Source: Ignavibacteria bacterium
GTDB lineage: Bacteria; Bacteroidota; Ignavibacteria; UBA10030; F1-140-MAGs086
DNA: 42,190 bases
Direction: 5' to 3'
Assembly: GCA_016873775.1 (NCBI GenBank)
Contig: VGWC01000015.1
Span: 1 to 42,190 of the forward strand
Part shown: positions 27,964 through 38,346 of the stretch, one piece after another
Position numbering within the stretch: position 1 is the first letter of the stretch
Layout: each line of letters opens with the position of its first letter
Made by a program: the position numbers and the translations under genes
The notes under the pieces: model-generated
Seen by the model: the letters and a program-made list of their open reading frames with translations, nothing else
Databases searched by the model: none
Told to the model about the DNA's origin: nothing

Positions 27964-30900
27964 CTATTTTATCAGCAATAATTTTTTTGTTTCGCTGTAA
28001 CGCAAGATTGCCGCCCCAGCGGATGAACCATCTTGCGAAATATCTATACGATAGAAATACACGCCGCTGGGTAAACCACTCGCATCAAATTGTATTTTGT
28101 GTTCACCTTCTTCCATTTCTTCGTTACTCAATAACTTCGCTACTTCTCTACCCAACACATCATACACTTTCAACGTTATCATACTATTCACAGATAACGA
28201 ATAACGTATCACGGTCAACGGATTAAACGGATTGGGATAATTCTGCTCCAATACAATTTCCGACGGCTCAGTCTTTACGTTTGAGTAAAAAATCAGCGGA
28301 GCAGAAATTCTGTTCGGTTCTTCGCGTACAATTCCTACCTCAGATGCTGTTTTCACACCTTTTAAATACACGCTGAAATATTTTTGCACTGTAACATAAT
28401 GTATCGAAATGTTGCTTGTATCAATGTGTACAAAAAAACCATCGTTTATTCGTTTCACAATGTTTCTCGCAAACGTATCAAGATTTCTGTACGCTGTTGA
28501 ATTATTTATTCCAAATCGTTCCCAATAGGTCATCAGTGTATCACAATAATTTGCAATTTCCTCAAGAGTACTTCCTTTCAACTGTCTTCCGATAAGCACA
28601 TACGGCGTATCTAAAACCAACGAACCGAATTTTTGAGGAAGTACGGAATCGCGACTCGCAAATAAATTCAACTTGAACACAACACATTGTTCCCACGCAA
28701 CGTTGTTATTTTTTGCTCTCGTCGGTGATATTGCTTTAACAAGTTTTTTATATCGTGAGCCAATACGAGACGAATCTAACGGATAAGAATTTCCCGTATG
28801 AGGTTCTGTATAAAATTTCCCCAAAGAACTCGGCGTCTTATAAGAAATCCACGAATAAATTTTCGCCGAATCTTTTGTTCCCTGTGGAACTCCTAAAAAA
28901 GTTGCTCCGTATTTCCCAATTTTTATAAATTCGTTATCGCGTACGGTTGCAATATTCGGCAATTCTTTGAACGTACCGTCTCCCGTCTTCTTTAGTTTAA
29001 TTGCTTTTTGTGCCAGCAACGTATCCGCGCGAAATGTGCGAAACTTCGTTGTGCCGACAAAATTTCCAAAATCGTTTCCCGAGAAATTACTCCCACTCGT
29101 TACGAAAACCGAATAACTTTCCGACGTAGGAAATGTTTGTTGCCACCCAGTTTGCAATTTTTCGCACACAGAATAATTTCCCGCTTGCAAATGTTCAAAA
29201 ACATAATTTCCGTTTTCGTCCGTTTCAACAGTATCGCTTGCTGGTCCCCCAAGTATAATTTTCCACGTTTGCAATCCCGCCTCCACCGAATCCCGAATTG
29301 CGTTTGCATTCGCATCGAAAAAAATCGTTCCCGAAATTTTTCCCAATTGAAATAATCCGAAATGTATTCCGTTAATATTTATTCCACTCGTCAATGGTAT
29401 TGCCGATGAATTCGTTGTTGTTTGAATCCATCCTTCGTTTATTTGTACGCGAACAAAATACGTTCCCGCAAATAAATCTGTAAATGAATAACCCTCATCC
29501 GTCATTTGCGCCGAATCCACAAGCGAAAGCGTATCGGGAGAAAACAACAATACTTTTATTCCATGCATCGAAATATCGCCTACATTCCGAACGCCATTCC
29601 CATTTTCATCTTCAAACACCATTCCGCTGATGGAACACTGTTGAAAATTTCCGAAGTTCATATTCTCAACAACACTTCCTCCTGCAAGCGAAACGAAATG
29701 CGTACCGTTCATCGGAAATGTTTGAATCCATCCATTGAAAACTCCTTCGCTTACTTCATAATCCGCCGGAAGAAGATTGGAAAATTCATACATTCCTTTT
29801 GCGTTGCTGAGAACGGAATCAACTAGCAAAGAATTTTTTTTCAAACGAATTTTCCACGACGAAAGTTTTGGTTCTCCTTCATCCAATTCGCCATTGCCGT
29901 TACCGTCATTGAATATTATTCCGGAGATTTTCCCGGTTTGCACATTGCCGAAATTTTTCCCTGCAATGCTATCTCCGCTGGAAACCGAAACAGAATATGT
30001 TCCCAAAAAAGGAAACGTTTGCACCCAGTTAACGCGTTGCATTTCGCTCAAGGTGTAAGCGCCCGCACGAACATTGATGAACTGAAATTTTCCATTTCCA
30101 TCTGTTGAAACGGATTCCATTGTCGCTCCCATGAGAAGTATTTTCCAGTTCGGAATTCCATTTTCGTTATCATCGAACACGCCGTTTGCATTGACATCGT
30201 TGAATTTCGTTCCGCTTATTTTTCCGTAACGAAAATTTCCAAAATTATTTCCACTCAAATATGCACCGCTAAAAACATTAACGATATGTGTTCCCGAAAT
30301 CGGATAGGTTTGCAACCATTCGTTGTTCACTTCTTCGCTCAACGTATATGTTCCCGCAAACAAATTGGTGAAAAGAAAATTTCCGTTTGCGTCGGTCGTT
30401 ACTGAATCATTCGTTATTCCGTTTAAAAATATTTCCCAGTGAGAAATTCCGTTTTCGCCCGCATCTTTTATTCCGTTTCCATTCACATCGTGAAATTTTT
30501 GCCCGCCGATTTTTCCGAGTTTAAAATTGCCGAAATGGTTTCCCGTAACAGTATTTCCGGAACTTATGGAAACAGAATATGTTCCTGGCGAAGGCGGAAA
30601 TGTTTGCACGAATCCGTTTTGTAATACTTCACTCAGCGTATAATTTCCATCGGGTAAATTGCCGATAAAATAATTTCCGTTTGCGTCCGATATTGCAGAA
30701 TCATCTTTCGTTCCTGTAATTTTCATTTTCCAATTCACAAGTCCCGTTTCACCATTGTCTTTTATCCCGTCGCCGTCGGAATCGTTGAAAACAATTCCGC
30801 TCACGGAACCAAATTGTTGCGGAATTATTCGAACCTGAAACGTATCAGGCGACGCAGTTGTATTGAATTCGTCTTTCGTAATAATGCGCCACTTGTATTT

Positions 30901-32184
30901 ATTTCCTGCGGAAAGAAATGAAAGCGTGAGCATAACTGTTGAATCATTTGCCAGAAAAATTGTATCAACAGAATTTCCCCAAATATGCAGTTGATAATAG
31001 TGGGGGTCATCAATCATATTCGCCGCGCGATTCCATCGAAATTTAATTTGTGAACCCACAACGATTGAATCATTATCGTTCGGAAATATCGGATGTACAA
31101 CCCGGCGCGGATGTAAATTGTTGTATGTAAAAACATACGTTCCCGTTTGAATATCGGACGAAACAATTTTTCCCGAAGGAAAGTACGGATAAATTGCCCA
31201 CACACCGTTGTACCCTCCGCTCGCTCCCGGATACGAATCGTACCATCCAGAAGTTATCGGGTCTAACGGATCCGTAATGTTCACGACAATTGTTCCTGCA
31301 GTGTACCATGCAACGTATGCATAGTTTCCGCGCACGGTAACGTTATGAACAATATCAGCAGGTGAATACGAATACGTTGCGGAAGGAGAAGTTGGCGCAA
31401 TAGGGAGCGTTGTCATATCCCAAAACTTAAGTTGTAACGGCGTACTTCCGATTTCATCCGTAGAAATTACATAGTTTCCGTTTGTTGTTGTCCACGTGTT
31501 ATGTTTGTAAAAACTTGTTTCGCCGATGTGTGCAATCAGCGACGGAGAAATTTTATTGGAAAGATGAACAATATCAATTCCGTTGTACCCGGCCGCGGCG
31601 TACATTGTATCGTTGCGAATATATGTGTCGTGATAATATCTACCAAAATTTACTACGCCAACAAATTGCGGGGATGTTGGATTTGCAAGAGAAAAAATTA
31701 CTGCGCCTCCCGGAGACCAATTCGCACATCCGTTGAGATACAAAAATCCGTTTGCAATTTCTATCGTATGCGAACGCAAAATATTTTTAGAACCATTCGA
31801 ATAATTATACGACTGCACCAAGGAAACGGAAGAAGGAAGATTTGACAAATCAATTATCTGCATTCCGCCGCCGGCTTCGGTAACGACATAGGCATAATTG
31901 TTATACGTGCGCATTTCTCTCCAAACAGAAGTCGGTCCAGTTACAAACGCAACTTCGTTTGCCGAATCGGTAATATCAATAAACGCCGTTCCCGTTGCTG
32001 TTCCAACAATTCCATACTCGCGCCCATCGGAAGCAGTATAGCCCCAGCATCCGCTGTATGAAACGCCGCTTGTTGTTCCGTGTTTTTTATCGAGATGAGA
32101 AAATAACGTTAAACCGTTTGTTTGTGAATATGCAATGTGCGAAGTGAGAAGAATAAGAGAAAAGACTGTAGCAATATATTTCAT
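27964..32184 (-). CDS. Choice-of-anchor-B/SdrD-repeat surface protein with T9SS sorting domain
   Basis: 1406 residues exported by the Sec and type IX systems. After a signal peptide (1-20) comes an LVIVD-type beta-propeller of the 'choice-of-anchor B' family (~25-355: GTAFIDITDSANEVAFV, GGGMQIIDLSNLPS). An Fn3-like domain follows, then six SdrD-B-like repeats of ~95-100 residues (~455-1060), each opening with a calcium-loop pattern such as NDSDGDGIKDNGE and ending FGNF-x-x-GKISG. A region of unknown fold (~1065-1300) precedes the sorting domain (NYPNPFNPLTVIRYSLS ... VYFYRID ... KKLLLIK). A hairpin insertion adds about 15 residues (SQDGSSAGAAILRYS) inside that domain. Probable cell-surface adhesin or recognition protein. 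Confidence 0.9.
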   Translation of the reverse strand: MKYIATVFSLILLTSHIAYSQTNGLTLFSHLDKKHGTTSGVSYSGCWGYTASDGREYGIVGTATGTAFIDITDSANEVAFVTGPTSVWREMRTYNNYAYVVTEAGGGMQIIDLSNLPSSVSLVQSYNYSNGSKNILRSHTIEIANGFLYLNGCANWSPGGAVIFSLANPTSPQFVGVVNFGRYYHDTYIRNDTMYAAAGYNGIDIVHLSNKISPSLIAHIGETSFYKHNTWTTTNGNYVISTDEIGSTPLQLKFWDMTTLPIAPTSPSATYSYSPADIVHNVTVRGNYAYVAWYTAGTIVVNITDPLDPITSGWYDSYPGASGGYNGVWAIYPYFPSGKIVSSDIQTGTYVFTYNNLHPRRVVHPIFPNDNDSIVVGSQIKFRWNRAANMIDDPHYYQLHIWGNSVDTIFLANDSTVMLTLSFLSAGNKYKWRIITKDEFNTTASPDTFQVRIIPQQFGSVSGIVFNDSDGDGIKDNGETGLVNWKMKITGTKDDSAISDANGNYFIGNLPDGNYTLSEVLQNGFVQTFPPSPGTYSVSISSGNTVTGNHFGNFKLGKIGGQKFHDVNGNGIKDAGENGISHWEIFLNGITNDSVTTDANGNFLFTNLFAGTYTLSEEVNNEWLQTYPISGTHIVNVFSGAYLSGNNFGNFRYGKISGTKFNDVNANGVFDDNENGIPNWKILLMGATMESVSTDGNGKFQFINVRAGAYTLSEMQRVNWVQTFPFLGTYSVSVSSGDSIAGKNFGNVQTGKISGIIFNDGNGNGELDEGEPKLSSWKIRLKKNSLLVDSVLSNAKGMYEFSNLLPADYEVSEGVFNGWIQTFPMNGTHFVSLAGGSVVENMNFGNFQQCSISGMVFEDENGNGVRNVGDISMHGIKVLLFSPDTLSLVDSAQMTDEGYSFTDLFAGTYFVRVQINEGWIQTTTNSSAIPLTSGININGIHFGLFQLGKISGTIFFDANANAIRDSVEAGLQTWKIILGGPASDTVETDENGNYVFEHLQAGNYSVCEKLQTGWQQTFPTSESYSVFVTSGSNFSGNDFGNFVGTTKFRTFRADTLLAQKAIKLKKTGDGTFKELPNIATVRDNEFIKIGKYGATFLGVPQGTKDSAKIYSWISYKTPSSLGKFYTEPHTGNSYPLDSSRIGSRYKKLVKAISPTRAKNNNVAWEQCVVFKLNLFASRDSVLPQKFGSLVLDTPYVLIGRQLKGSTLEEIANYCDTLMTYWERFGINNSTAYRNLDTFARNIVKRINDGFFVHIDTSNISIHYVTVQKYFSVYLKGVKTASEVGIVREEPNRISAPLIFYSNVKTEPSEIVLEQNYPNPFNPLTVIRYSLSVNSMITLKVYDVLGREVAKLLSNEEMEEGEHKIQFDASGLPSGVYFYRIDISQDGSSAGAAILRYSETKKLLLIK
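28001..28036. repeat. Two-tier hairpin inside a T9SS sorting-domain coding sequence
   Basis: CGCAAGAT (28001-28008) and ATCTTGCG (28029-28036) are perfect inverted arms. Inside them CCGC (28011-28014) pairs with GCGG (28019-28022). The sequence is GC-rich compared with its surroundings. It encodes an extra loop between the YFYRID strand and the KKLLLIK end of the sorting domain, where most family members have 5-8 residues. The frame is kept. Confidence 0.7.
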
Positions 32185-32313: not shown

Positions 32314-32421
32314 CACGACCATCAGTGGTCGTGCTTCGCGAAAAAACCCCGATAAACCGGGATTAAATCAAAGAATCATTGATGATTCGTTTTTCGTCCA
32401 TCAAGACCGTTTACGGTCTTG
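32314..32421. repeat. Cluster of four short hairpins
   Basis: In 108 bases: CACGACCA/TGGTCGTG (32314-32333, loop TCAG); CCCG/CGGG within CCCCGATAAACCGGG (32347-32361), followed on the minus strand by TTTTTT, so a possible minus-strand terminator; GAATCA/TGATTC (32373-32388); and CAAGACCG/CGGTCTTG (32402-32421, loop TTTA). All have tetraloop-sized centres and different arms. Confidence 0.6.
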
Positions 32422-32567
32422 GTGAAATGCCAACAACTCTTGTGAAACACGACCAAAATTGTATTGAAAAATGTTAAATTTTTTTTTCAATCTCTTTCAT
32501 CTTCCAAAACTTTTTCTATATTGAGCCACGTTTTTTTATGTAGACTATTTTTTAATAACATTTATTT

Positions 32568-32602
32568 AGGAGAAAATTATGTTAATCCCCCCCCCCCAGT
32601 AA
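32568..32602 (+). promoter_or_regulatory. Strong ribosome site, ATG and C11 tract: possible phase-variation switch
   Basis: AGGAG (32568-32572), 6 bases, then ATG (32579-32581) form the best start signal of the window. An uninterrupted run of eleven C (32587-32597) follows. As sequenced the ATG opens a 7-codon frame ending in TAA at 32600-32602. With 12 C (or 9) the same ATG would read through into the 1318-aa gene and add 30 residues before its internal ATG at 32668. A C11 run by chance in such AT-rich DNA is very unlikely. Confidence 0.6.
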
Positions 32603-32667
32603 AACGAACTTTCAAATACGCATCATTTCTTAATCACACACAAACGCGTTTTGCGCGTGTGCTCAAG

Positions 32668-35600
32668 ATGTCGCCGACGAAATTTGTACTCAAAATTGTT
32701 TTGTTGTTTTTTGTTTTTGCTCTAAGCGAAAAACATACACTTATAGCACAAACGCAAAACACGTGGGACTCGTTAGCCGGACCTTCCCGCACGCCGAAAT
32801 CGTTTGACATTACCGTTTCGAAAAATAATATCGCTTACACCGCCGATTTACTTCGTTTGATGAAAACAACGAATGGCGGAAATGATTGGGATACAACAAA
32901 AACACCTATTGACTCTCCTCTTGTGGTTTCTTCTAATCCTGATAGCGGAAATTATGTACTCGTAGGAAAAGAAGGAAAAGTACTCTTTTCTTCTGTTGGC
33001 GGAGGAACTTCTAACAGTAACCTTAATTGGATAAACGTAATTCCTTCACAACCGAATATTTATCCTTCTCGTTTTTCCAGATCGCCGAGTACGTCGAGTA
33101 TTGTTTGGCTTGGTTCAGAGTATACTGAAGGAAATACATCACTACGATTTTCAGAACGTAATGGTAGACTCGGCAGTTGGGTTGATATTAAATACTTCAA
33201 AGATAGCGTCAAGACAAATATAACCGATATAGCAATTCGTTCAGGAAACGATAACGAAGTGTGGGTAACCGGCACATCGGCAGGCAAAGCGAAAGTAAGC
33301 GGGGTGTGGCGTACTTACAATGCAATGTCTACGAATTCGACGTGGAAGTACTTCAAAATAAAACCAACGACGGAAAACCAACCCCGTCAAACGAGCGTTG
33401 CGCTCTTGGGTTCAAAAGTACTTGTGGGAACGGAAAACGGCGACATTTATGCTCTCGACACAATTACTAATGCCACGAATCCCGTCAGAATTTTCAACTT
33501 TTCATCATCTCAATCTATTCTCTCGCTTCGTACTGTAGGAAGTAGAGTTGTTGCCGCAGCTGAACAACAGTTATTTGTTATCAGAAAAACAACGAGTAAC
33601 TGGACTGCGGATACATTGAACAAAAAAGACAATACTCCCGGATCATTGAATGTTCGCGGCTTACCGAAAAAGAAAACGCTTTTTTACAGCATTGCGGTTG
33701 ACCCGCTCGATACAAACAAGTGGTTCGTCAGCACCTCGCGCGGTGTGTACAGAACGACCAACGGCGGCACAATCTGGCTCCCCAGCGGAACCTATACGAT
33801 GACTGTTCCCGCTCAATATGTTGTCGCCAATGAAAGCACGGCGTTTTCCATTTCCAAAGAAGGGAAGAAAGGAAAGAATAAATATCTTGCAGGGGCAGAC
33901 CGTTACGACCGAAGCGCCAACGATTGGGATGCCGTTGATTTTGGAGATAATTCTTATAACTTTGAATGTAAGGGGTTCTATTTTTACTCGCCCGATACAG
34001 TGTTTTCTTTTGGGAGATTGCAAAAAGACAAAAATATACGCGGACAAGAAGACACAGCAATTATTTTTGTTTCGTATGACCGCGGCTCAACGTGGGAACG
34101 AAACTATGTGGGACATCCTAGCAACAATGCCGTTATCAATGGAATGATGTCGTGGACCAATTTGACTACTGATTACAACGGCTTAATTGCTTTTGGGAAA
34201 ATAAGTAAACGAGATACTATTTTGCTTATCCGAAGCAGTAACGGCGGACAATCGTGGCTTCCATTTCCTAAAAAGATATTTGATTATAAGGGAGAAGTTG
34301 TTTCACTTGCTCAAACACCTCGTGGACTTCCTTCTATGAAAGGTTATGCAATTGTGAAATCCCCGGGGAATGACGATGTTTACTATCTAAACGGAACATC
34401 CCAAGGACCATTTTCTTGGCTCAAACTTACCCAACCTCAAAGAAATCCTCATCGTACGAATAACTTTGGAACACTTTATAATTGTGCGATGCACATTGTT
34501 AGAGGTACGGATGCTATACCATTTATAGCGGGTAAGAAAGGGTTGTTTAGAAGTCAAGAACTTATTCTCAGCGGCGAATGCAAACAAGTAGTTTTGCTCA
34601 GCAATCGCATTTTTATTATTCGAGAAGGAAAACCCGATGTCGTTTATACGAATAGACTCGACGTTTCTGGATACCCATCAGAACAATGGAGTAACCTTAC
34701 TTCGCAATTTTCCGCCGAGCACATTTATACGATGTCCATTGTTCCACAATATATCGGCGTTTTAATAGACATTAATAATTTCACACTATACTGTGCGACG
34801 GAAAAAGGTGTGTTTCGCAATAATGTTTCTCTTGGTGCGCCGTCGGCAGGAAAATTTCAAACCACCACCACTCCTCCCCGTCCGAAAAATCTTGTAGTGG
34901 GAGAAGGAGAAGAAATGCATTGTATCGAAGACGTCGTTATTCCCGAAGGTTCATCCTTTATAGTACAAGAAGGAGGTTCTGTGGTGTTCGATGAAGGTAT
35001 GAAAATGCGCATCGAGGGAGCATTGAACGTCTATGGAAGCGATGAACATCCCGTGAAATTCGGAGCCGCTTACGATAACACACGCTGGAAAGGAATTTAT
35101 CTTGCGCCGGGAGCATCGGCATATATCGAAAATGCAGAAATCTCCGATGCCGTCGTTGGTATTTTTGCCGCAAAAGCAGACCTCTCACTCTCGAATGTTA
35201 CCGTCCGCAATTGCAGAATCGGCGCGGGAATGTACGGAATGAATGAAGAGCCGCCGCTCATTGAAGAAAGTAAATTTCTGACGAATGATTGGGGCATCGT
35301 CTTGGTCAATGGCGCCGACGCAACGTTGACGAATAATGTTATCGCAGAAGGGCAAAAAGGAATTCTTATAGACGCCAGCAGTCCGCTTTTTTCTCGGAAC
35401 GAAATTAAAAACCATTCGCAAGTCGGCGTCGTTGTCTATAACAGCGGTTATCCTCGTTTCGGCGAAATAGCAACGAACTCGCAAGGACTGAACATCGTGC
35501 AAGGCAATGCATTAACACAACTTCTGACCGTGCAAGGATATGCGTTTCTCGGATATGTACGCCACGATTGTATAACGCAAGTAGGGGGAGAAAATCTGAT

Positions 35601-36624
35601 TGCGGGGACCGACCCCAACGCCCCGCTTTGTGTTGCCGTAGAAAAATCTGCGATTACTTCGATGATAACCGATTGGGGACTCGCAACGGTTTCGGCGGAA
35701 AACTTTTTGACCGACCCGACGTCAAAAATTATTTTTGAATGTCTTTCGCAAGAGCCCGCCAATGAGGCAGAAAAATTGCTCTGGGAAGCGTTAGAGCGGA
35801 GAAGTCTTGGCGATTATGAGACCACGAAGGAAAAGTTAGAAGAAGCAACATTAGCAGGAACAACAGAACAAGCGCTTCGCGCGTTGGGAGAACTTGCTTT
35901 CACAGTAAAATTAGAAGAAGATGGAACGGGCGCAAGCGTTGCTGCCGAGGAAAATTTCTTCGACTTTCTGAGTTCCGTTGCGGCTTCCCATCCGATTCCC
36001 GAAGTAGAATATGCGGCGGCAAAAATACTCGCTCTCGATGCGGCAAAAAATGAAGATATGTTCACTGCTTACGATAAAATGAGTACACTTTCCGACCTCG
36101 CTCTCGACGACGACACAAAAATATCCACGCTCCTTGCACGTTTGTTCTTCGAGACGTGCGATTTGGAATATGACGACAACGCATTGGAAACAGCCATCAC
36201 ACTGCAAACGCATTTTCCGGACGATGAACGCACGCAATTAGCGGGCATTGTTACGGAATTCATTACCGATAATATTTTACCGCAGCAGTATTCCAAACGT
36301 CGGGCGTTTGACGTTGCGATGCGAAAGTTTCCCGCGCGACTCAAATCTCAAAACGTACCAAAAACATTTGCACTGTACCACAACTACCCGAACCCATTCA
36401 ATCCGACGACGATGTTTACCTACGACGTTCCCAAAGATGCCCACGTGGAAATTATCCTTTATGATTTACTCGGCAGAAAAATTGCAACGCTCGTGAACGA
36501 AATAAAACCGGCAGGGTATTATTCGGTGGGCTGGAATGCAAGCGCAGTTTCCTCCGACGTGTATTTTGTGAAGATGCAAAGCGAGAACTTTTCAAAAATA
36601 CACAAAGTGATGGTAATGAAGTAG
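32668..36624 (+). CDS. Multidomain T9SS surface protein (propeller, beta-helix, helical repeats, sorting domain)
   Basis: 1318 residues from ATG 32668, where a signal peptide begins (MSPTKFVLKIVLLFFVFALS). This ATG has no Shine-Dalgarno box; the strong AGGAG/ATG upstream is out of frame by one C of an 11-C tract. The first ~700 residues have repeated 'TTNGGxxW' and 'SSNGGQSW' Asp-boxes of a sortilin/BNR-type propeller. About 760-1000 is a right-handed parallel beta-helix (VVIPEGSSFIVQEGGSVVFD, then turns ending NxI). About 1010-1190 is alpha-helical and TPR-like. The sorting domain is the last ~85 residues (NYPNPFNPTTMFTYDV ... KVMVMK). Probably displayed on the cell surface. Confidence 0.88.
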   Translation: MSPTKFVLKIVLLFFVFALSEKHTLIAQTQNTWDSLAGPSRTPKSFDITVSKNNIAYTADLLRLMKTTNGGNDWDTTKTPIDSPLVVSSNPDSGNYVLVGKEGKVLFSSVGGGTSNSNLNWINVIPSQPNIYPSRFSRSPSTSSIVWLGSEYTEGNTSLRFSERNGRLGSWVDIKYFKDSVKTNITDIAIRSGNDNEVWVTGTSAGKAKVSGVWRTYNAMSTNSTWKYFKIKPTTENQPRQTSVALLGSKVLVGTENGDIYALDTITNATNPVRIFNFSSSQSILSLRTVGSRVVAAAEQQLFVIRKTTSNWTADTLNKKDNTPGSLNVRGLPKKKTLFYSIAVDPLDTNKWFVSTSRGVYRTTNGGTIWLPSGTYTMTVPAQYVVANESTAFSISKEGKKGKNKYLAGADRYDRSANDWDAVDFGDNSYNFECKGFYFYSPDTVFSFGRLQKDKNIRGQEDTAIIFVSYDRGSTWERNYVGHPSNNAVINGMMSWTNLTTDYNGLIAFGKISKRDTILLIRSSNGGQSWLPFPKKIFDYKGEVVSLAQTPRGLPSMKGYAIVKSPGNDDVYYLNGTSQGPFSWLKLTQPQRNPHRTNNFGTLYNCAMHIVRGTDAIPFIAGKKGLFRSQELILSGECKQVVLLSNRIFIIREGKPDVVYTNRLDVSGYPSEQWSNLTSQFSAEHIYTMSIVPQYIGVLIDINNFTLYCATEKGVFRNNVSLGAPSAGKFQTTTTPPRPKNLVVGEGEEMHCIEDVVIPEGSSFIVQEGGSVVFDEGMKMRIEGALNVYGSDEHPVKFGAAYDNTRWKGIYLAPGASAYIENAEISDAVVGIFAAKADLSLSNVTVRNCRIGAGMYGMNEEPPLIEESKFLTNDWGIVLVNGADATLTNNVIAEGQKGILIDASSPLFSRNEIKNHSQVGVVVYNSGYPRFGEIATNSQGLNIVQGNALTQLLTVQGYAFLGYVRHDCITQVGGENLIAGTDPNAPLCVAVEKSAITSMITDWGLATVSAENFLTDPTSKIIFECLSQEPANEAEKLLWEALERRSLGDYETTKEKLEEATLAGTTEQALRALGELAFTVKLEEDGTGASVAAEENFFDFLSSVAASHPIPEVEYAAAKILALDAAKNEDMFTAYDKMSTLSDLALDDDTKISTLLARLFFETCDLEYDDNALETAITLQTHFPDDERTQLAGIVTEFITDNILPQQYSKRRAFDVAMRKFPARLKSQNVPKTFALYHNYPNPFNPTTMFTYDVPKDAHVEIILYDLLGRKIATLVNEIKPAGYYSVGWNASAVSSDVYFVKMQSENFSKIHKVMVMK

Positions 36625-36705: not shown

Positions 36706-38346
36706 ATGAAATACACTTTTCTTTTCATCGGGGTCGTAATGCTATTCGCATCGCAAACACAAAGTATTGCGCAACAACTACGCTCGTCGCTGCAAACAAC
36801 TCCATCGCAACCGTTCTTTTTCAATAAGGATGCAGATTGGAAAACGGGTAATACATATACTGCTACTGTTGATTCTAATACCAATTGGGGAATCGAGAAT
36901 TGGGGACCCATTATGCACTTTAACGACTCAGGAGATCTTATCAATAGTAGCGTATGGATTGCAAACGGCTATACGCATTTTACATATACACCATGGGGAA
37001 GATTATTTTATGCGCGTTCGAGCGATGGGGTAAACTTTAAAACACGTGAACTTTTCGACCGGCGGTTCTCGGGTATTGCTGTCGCTTATCTGGCGGTAAC
37101 CGAACAATGCGTTATGATTTATTATTGGGTATTTATGAACGGTTTCGGTCACTCCCCGATTTATCTTATCCGTTCTTTCGATAATGGAGATACGTTTGAT
37201 TCCGCGCGAGCAATTACGCAGGAATCGTTCGACGCATTTCCTGATTGTTATCCTGCCGTGTGGAACGATACGGTCGTTATCACTCTTACGTATTTTAATC
37301 GGAAAAAGATGCCAACTGGCGCATATTTCTATACATCTTACGATAACGGTTCGACGTGGAAAACATGGACTACGAAACTTCCTGTAACAGGATATTCGAG
37401 ACAAATAGCATTAACATCTAGTAAACTTCATATGTTATATTCCAAGCGAAAGAATAACAAGAAGTATCGCGGAGGAGAAACGATGTATCTCTACTCGACA
37501 AACGGGGGAACGAAATGGAGCAAACATAACGACCGCGCGGCCCTTACCAAACTTGATGGCTACACATCGGATGATGCTCGAATAGCATCTTCCTATAAAG
37601 AAAATTTATACGTATGTTGGATAGACGGACAATTGGGAAGTACGGCTTTTGGGTTTACTGGGAGTGTGTTTTTTCGCAAATCAACGAATGCAGGAAAAAC
37701 GTGGACACCGGAAGTCGCTCTCACTCAACGCCCTGATGCGGGAACTTCTTCTCTTGCAGTAGAAAGGAATGAAGGAAAAAACGTTGCGGTAGCATGGGAC
37801 AAGATGCTGCATTTTCTTGACACTAATCAAATAATAGTGTGCATCTCGATGGATGGCGGGACTTTATGGTACCCGGAAGTAAATGTTAATCCAAATTCTT
37901 TCTTGGGAGTGGGCCCATCTGTTGCTGTGGGAACGGATCGTGTTACGGTTGTATGGAGTGAGGTTTCGCCCGTCAGTAGTCCCACGCATCCCTTTCTACG
38001 CTCTGCCGCACTACCTCAACGCAAGCCGTCTCCTCTTCTTCCTCCACAGAATATTGTTTCTCCCAGCACAACACAACTCGTGGGCAACTATCCGAATCCG
38101 TTTAATCCCGTTACGGTTATTCGTTACACGTTATCTGCACGCAGCACGGTAACGCTCAAAGTATATAATACGTTGGGGCAAGAAATAGCAGCGCTTCTTC
38201 TCAACAAAGAACAAAAAGAAGGTGTGTATGAAGAAACGTTCGACGCAAGTAATCTGGCATCGGGAATGTATTTCGCTCATCTCACAGTGGAAACGCTGTG
38301 GGGCGATAACCATCGGGAAGTGAAAAAGTTGGTAGTGGCAAAGTGA
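36706..38346 (+). CDS. BNR/Asp-box propeller protein with T9SS sorting domain
   Basis: 546 residues. The signal peptide is MKYTFLFIGVVMLFASQTQSIA. A six-bladed sialidase-like propeller spans ~30-440, with Asp-box motifs SFDNGDTFD, SYDNGSTWK, STNGGTKWS, STNAGKTWT and SMDGGTLWY. I see no sialidase Arg triad or FRIP motif, so catalysis is doubtful and glycan or surface binding is more likely. A proline-rich linker leads to the sorting domain (NYPNPFNPVTVIRYTLS ... NTLGQEIAALL ... KKLVVAK). The stop codon lies at the edge of a 48-bp block shared with the end of the preceding gene (36603-36650), which is read there in another frame. Confidence 0.88.
   Translation: MKYTFLFIGVVMLFASQTQSIAQQLRSSLQTTPSQPFFFNKDADWKTGNTYTATVDSNTNWGIENWGPIMHFNDSGDLINSSVWIANGYTHFTYTPWGRLFYARSSDGVNFKTRELFDRRFSGIAVAYLAVTEQCVMIYYWVFMNGFGHSPIYLIRSFDNGDTFDSARAITQESFDAFPDCYPAVWNDTVVITLTYFNRKKMPTGAYFYTSYDNGSTWKTWTTKLPVTGYSRQIALTSSKLHMLYSKRKNNKKYRGGETMYLYSTNGGTKWSKHNDRAALTKLDGYTSDDARIASSYKENLYVCWIDGQLGSTAFGFTGSVFFRKSTNAGKTWTPEVALTQRPDAGTSSLAVERNEGKNVAVAWDKMLHFLDTNQIIVCISMDGGTLWYPEVNVNPNSFLGVGPSVAVGTDRVTVVWSEVSPVSSPTHPFLRSAALPQRKPSPLLPPQNIVSPSTTQLVGNYPNPFNPVTVIRYTLSARSTVTLKVYNTLGQEIAALLLNKEQKEGVYEETFDASNLASGMYFAHLTVETLWGDNHREVKKLVVAK

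Follow-up and report, generated by a model that had tools for sequence, protein, structure and literature searches.

Described phase-variable tracts and the locus under study

Phase variation by homopolymeric tracts has been described mostly for host-adapted pathogens, and in the pilC genes of Neisseria the tract is placed in the signal-peptide region. In pilC1 and pilC2 the frame set by a homopolymeric G/C tract of 9-20 bases within the coding sequence turns a surface-associated protein on or off, and phase-variable G/C tracts have a published minimum length of 9 bases (PMC5953494). In Helicobacter canadensis, where tract length and frameshift are the criteria, poly-G lies either near the start codon or later in the frame (PMC2823697). 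NalP and MspA of Neisseria meningitidis are secreted surface autotransporters switched by homopolymeric tracts of their coding sequences (PMC3723659). The inlA gene of L. monocytogenes has a tract near its 5' end by which a surface protein is reversibly inactivated, and a survey of 5'-end homopolymeric tracts in prokaryotes returned mainly poly-A/T, poly-C/G being generally under-represented (PMC2831843).

The locus considered here lies in the window, that is, the whole stretch of 42,190 nucleotides that was analysed, and consists of eleven uninterrupted cytosines (C11) ahead of a gene for a 1318-residue cargo protein of the T9SS. As in pilC, a G/C tract falls in the reading frame of a surface-type protein and a frame-based on/off control is proposed; unlike pilC, a pathogen's pilus adhesin for which switching is demonstrated, the present gene belongs to an uncultivated bacterium and encodes a T9SS cargo, its tract lies 5' of the signal peptide, and its switching is proposed. 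As in H. canadensis, this tract is near a start codon while another, on contig C14 of the same genome, comes later in the frame. The late tracts of H. canadensis alter few C-terminal residues, whereas on C14 the break costs the protein half of its length and with it the T9SS sorting domain; by analogy it may be likened to the C-terminal variation of that species taken to an extreme. NalP and MspA use type V secretion in place of the T9SS. As in inlA, the tract sits near the 5' end of a gene for a surface protein; unlike the majority of the surveyed tracts, it is poly-C. The mechanism would be a classic one, and for the T9SS cargo class and for the lineage no report was found in a literature search for T9SS or Ignavibacteria phase variation, which covered open-access papers and leaves absence unproven.

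Start signals, leader and reading frame of the cargo gene

Read directly, the AGGAG box, the only perfect match to TTTAGGAGAAAATTATG within the window, is followed after its spacer by ATG (32579-32581), TTA, AT and the C11 tract, the next base being A (Table 1). As assembled, this ATG gives MLIPPPQ* and is out of frame with the cargo gene. With a tract of 12 or 9 C its frame reads MLIPPPPVKRTFKYASFLNHTQTRFARVLK-MSPTKFVLKIV... and joins the 1318-residue protein, 23 codons separating the tract from MSPTKFVLKIVLLFFVFALSEKHTLIAQ and the frame then being open to residue 1318. The earlier note had described the box, the six-base spacer, the ATG and the eleven C, the end of translation after seven codons, and the read-through into the T9SS protein with 12 or 9 C; the letters and the frame arithmetic bear it out on each of these points. 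The tract starts within the third codon from an ATG preceded by a Shine-Dalgarno box, a length of 11 closing the frame and lengths of 9 or 12 opening it, but any effect on expression of such a position near the 5' end of the reading frame depends on initiation at 32579.

Table 1. Coordinates of the features of the locus in the window
Feature	Position	Strand	Remarks
AT-rich promoter / 5' UTR region	32464..32567	+	GC 13-33%; putative role, from composition only
Shine-Dalgarno box AGGAG	32568..32572	+	6 nt 5' of ATG; read directly
Start codon and OFF-state mini-ORF MLIPPPQ*	32579..32602	+	stop 32600-32602; read as assembled
C11 tract, proposed slippage switch	32587..32597	+	longest C/G run of the genome; run-length decay predicts none
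Leader VKRTFKYASFLNHTQTRFARVLK, translated only in the proposed ON state	32598..32667	+	open in the gene's frame; the other two forward frames contain stops
1318-aa T9SS cargo protein	32668..36624	+	propeller-like N-terminal part, beta-helix, helical region, sorting domain
Putative signal peptide MSPTKFVLKIVLLFFVFALSEKHTLIAQ	32668..32751	+	read directly; matches the initial signal peptide of the G007 homologue
Right-handed beta-helix domain	35080..35448	+	PF13229, residues 805-927; Pfam Beta_helix 6.8e-16
T9SS type A C-terminal sorting domain	36385..36615	+	PF18962 and TIGR04183, residues 1240-1316

From the M at 32668 the putative signal peptide has, by eye, a clear n/h/c pattern, and the C-terminus is assigned to the T9SS type A sorting domains by scores of 30.2 for TIGR04183 (curated cut-off 23) and 29.5 for PF18962 (cut-off 27), with Pfam Por_Secre_tail at 9.1e-7. 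The T9SS translocon is represented in the genome by SprA on contig C37 (SprA_N, 2.9e-61). Two further T9SS cargo genes flank the gene, at 27964-32184 on the minus strand and at 36706-38346; the flanking products are a SdrD_B-repeat/choice-of-anchor B protein and a BNR-repeat protein. Elsewhere in the genome two short ORFs resemble parts of the cargo at 42-46%, one (contig C7, 43819-44391) its residues 1129-1318 and the other (contig C45, 15388-15591) its residues 1144-1210; this likeness goes beyond the sorting domain, and the ORFs are possibly fragments of related cargo genes. A scan of the upstream region for sigma-70-type promoters gave no match on the plus strand. Short palindromes lie 5' of the gene, at 32314-32333 and 32399-32424, their core AAGACCGTTTACGGTCTT occurring four times in 1.88 Mb sampled from the genome.

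Were translation to begin at ATG 32668, or at the in-frame GTG 32659, the tract would lie in an untranslated leader, where it would be neutral or where its length would tune translation or the amount of mRNA. The signal peptide of the G007 homologue, which with one in G006 is the best among the distant homologues, begins at the position equivalent to 32668; its 5' end, which was read, opens with the signal peptide and lacks both the tract and the leader, so the leader of the present gene would be lineage-specific. The earlier note had turned the missing Shine-Dalgarno box at 32668 against a start there. This argument is weak because most cargo genes of this genome lack a strong box: it is present at 15 of 74 cargo gene starts, and its absence from about 80% of them is not disqualifying, so that we rejected it as a strong argument; among long ORFs in general, a strong box precedes 7% of first ATGs vs 3% of inner ones. 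Base composition argues better. The 22 nt upstream of ATG 32668 are 59% GC, whereas the 51 other cargo signal-peptide starts have a mean of 26% (sd 7%) and reach 45% at most, and on this GC-rich context ATG 32668 is an unlikely start; the 22 nt upstream of ATG 32579 are 18% GC, as at true starts. The best start signals are those at 32579, and the segment between tract and signal peptide is free of stops in the gene's frame alone among the three forward frames. Neither GTG 32659 nor TTG 32464, up to which the open frame as assembled extends without an ATG or a Shine-Dalgarno box, has good start signals by eye. We consider a start downstream of the tract improbable.

The leader, which in the proposed ON-state translation would include VKRTFKYASFLNHTQTR, is not strongly gene-like in its codons: its score is the best of the six frames but weak, standing at the 6th percentile of coding windows and being matched by 15% of off-frame windows. 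The proposed 30-residue extension before a signal peptide is unusual and counts against phase variation.

Since Pro-Pro-Pro is a known ribosome-stalling motif, which the C11 frame encodes with a downstream ATG on hand, MLIPPPQ* might instead be a regulatory leader peptide, on which ribosomes stall and which controls reinitiation at 32668, no switching by length being involved. Against such a control, RNA structure at the leader is not significant (z 0.12), 65 nt separate the stop from the next ATG, Pro-Pro-Pro does not need a pure C run, and the second tract, on C14, is left unexplained. We regard it as highly improbable.

Long G/C runs in the genome and in the order

The genome, MAG-like in its assembly, comprises 2.54 Mb in 157 contigs, from which a sample of 1.88 Mb (1,879,383 bases), taken as stretches, was used for the run-length distribution. 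Counts of C and G runs drop about sixfold per added base up to length 7, with 218 runs of 5 bases, 33 of 6 and 6 of 7; lengths 8 and 9 are absent, and lengths 10 and 11 occur once each. Extrapolated by our own arithmetic, this decay would leave about 0.04 runs of at least 10 bases in the sample. Within the window, the longest C run other than C11 is of 5. The rest of the genome adds only one more run of at least 8, a G8 lying in frame in ychF, whose product has its nearest matches in Ignavibacteria, Bacteroidetes-labelled and Kapaibacterium MAGs (62-69%). By this distribution C11 is longer than chance, as befits a contingency locus, and it lies above the published G/C length cut-off for such loci.

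The run of 10 is a C10 at 26788-26797 of contig C14 (L002, L070), that is, G10 on the coding strand, inside a second T9SS cargo gene. Upstream of it a 488-codon frame with a signal peptide and an SBBP propeller ends in ...VSSGGG*; downstream, one frame over, a 482-codon frame carries a SdrD_B-like part and a T9SS sorting domain. G002 (48% identity) and G001 (44%) carry the gene as one uninterrupted frame. Phase variation by tract length gains independent support because the genome's one other long G/C tract likewise breaks a cargo gene, one with intact orthologues. Both runs of at least 9 in this genome thus sit in T9SS cargo genes, and neither is in frame; among runs of 6-7 that have well-supported coding to either side, by contrast, almost all keep the frame, the few exceptions being doubtful. 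Cargo ORFs, of which 90 have a sorting domain, occupy 264,120 of the 1,879,383 bases (14% of the sample), and the probability that both long runs fall in cargo by chance is about 2%, a figure resting on two tracts only. Among other microsatellites in cargo genes there is only CATC x4, below the cut-off.

Two explanations without switching would account for the frame break at C11. In the first, the gene is expressed constitutively from a tract whose true length is fixed at 12 (or 9) C, and the break, like that on C14, is an assembly or sequencing error. The assembly is MAG-like, in 157 contigs, both coding sides of this gene and of the C14 gene are intact, as for functional genes, and two contigs of G001 ending in runs of 12-13 suggest that assemblers have trouble at such runs. 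Against this, short-read consensus is usually right for G/C runs of 10-11, and C11 and C10 stay outliers at any exact length, a run that long being slippage-prone anyway; we hold a miscall to be unlikely. In the second, the tract would have drifted and the frameshift would be the ordinary loss of a dispensable cargo gene, one among many, for which no orthologue was found in the genus, the family or the contigs of this genome. Such decay fits poorly with 1318 codons free of stops and with a normal coding signal, nor would it lead one to expect two independent breaks exactly at the two longest G/C runs, and we give it very little credence. The length miscall and the start at 32668 are the main rivals to phase variation, the stalling peptide and decay being less likely.

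The order was surveyed through 98 genomes, 84 of which have a G/C run of at least 9, and about 80 tract contexts were read; these are consensus sequences and have the same length uncertainty as the tract of the window. Cargo genes hold about 8 of these tracts, a share that does not exceed expectation, and an order-wide enrichment of tracts in cargo genes is rejected. Two loci parallel the design of the C11 locus, to judge from their layout of Shine-Dalgarno box, ATG, tract and signal peptide: L192 (G015:C32), with AAGGA, ATG, C10, a short leader and a lipoprotein-type signal, is in frame, and L224 (G027:C41), with AAGGAG, ATG and a G10 within the signal peptide, is out of frame by one base. 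At L194 (G017:C177, about 3197) a C9 directly precedes a T9SS sorting domain and is out of frame after a 1065-codon frame.

Other tracts of the survey concern other kinds of genes. Two genes that by eye are PAS/GAF sensor-kinase-like, L174 (G006:C54) and L186 (G011:C148), are broken mid-gene at a C9 and a G10. The genomes G062-G065 of genus g38 have 88-164 G/C runs of at least 9 each, far more than the rest of the order, for which GC content or a large phasome are candidate causes. The C9 runs in YidC-like proteins of G015 and G030 were discarded as switches, being in frame and read as ordinary proline codons, as were the G001 contigs ending in G12/C13 tracts, which are not clearly coding.

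A proposed model of translational phase variation

The model we propose is that C11 is a contingency locus, subject to translational phase variation by slipped-strand mispairing, to which, on the sequence evidence, we give a probability of roughly 0.58. The gene would start at ATG 32579, with the C tract within its first codons, and slippage during replication would lengthen or shorten the tract by a single base. At 9 or 12 C, lengths divisible by 3, the product would be a precursor of about 1348 residues, in which a 30-residue extension comes before the Sec signal peptide, and the protein of this ON state would be secreted and then sorted to the surface by the T9SS. Other lengths, including 11 with its seven-residue peptide, would give no full-length product and no surface protein, and ON and OFF cells would coexist in the population. 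The G10 locus of C14 would toggle its cargo between the complete protein and one that lacks the sorting domain. We infer the variation of tract lengths in the population, the translation from 32579 and the surface phenotype.

The phase-variable surface protein suggested by the earlier note is, in our analysis, the best reading of the locus: the tract is of at least 9 bases, the frame is shifted, and a tract on C14 likewise breaks a cargo whose orthologues are intact, the note's reasoning from the missing box at 32668 being the part that did not hold. Points against phase variation are the presence of MutS and MutL, the leaderless homologue in G007, the weak codon score of the leader and the lack of order-wide enrichment in cargo genes. 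As the genome encodes both MutS and MutL, slippage should be lower and its rates modest.

More tentatively, and with considerable doubt, the two loci could form a small T9SS phasome in an uncultivated lineage of Ignavibacteria/Kapabacteria type, in which one tract switches a whole cargo and another a sorting domain, that is, surface-sorted against unsorted protein; the C9 of L194 would then be a second case of sorting-domain switching. If phase variation is true of these genes, it would suggest that stochastic surface variation, whether in the face of phages, predators or changing substrates, is spread wider than host-adapted pathogens, and that the T9SS sorting domain itself may be a switched module.
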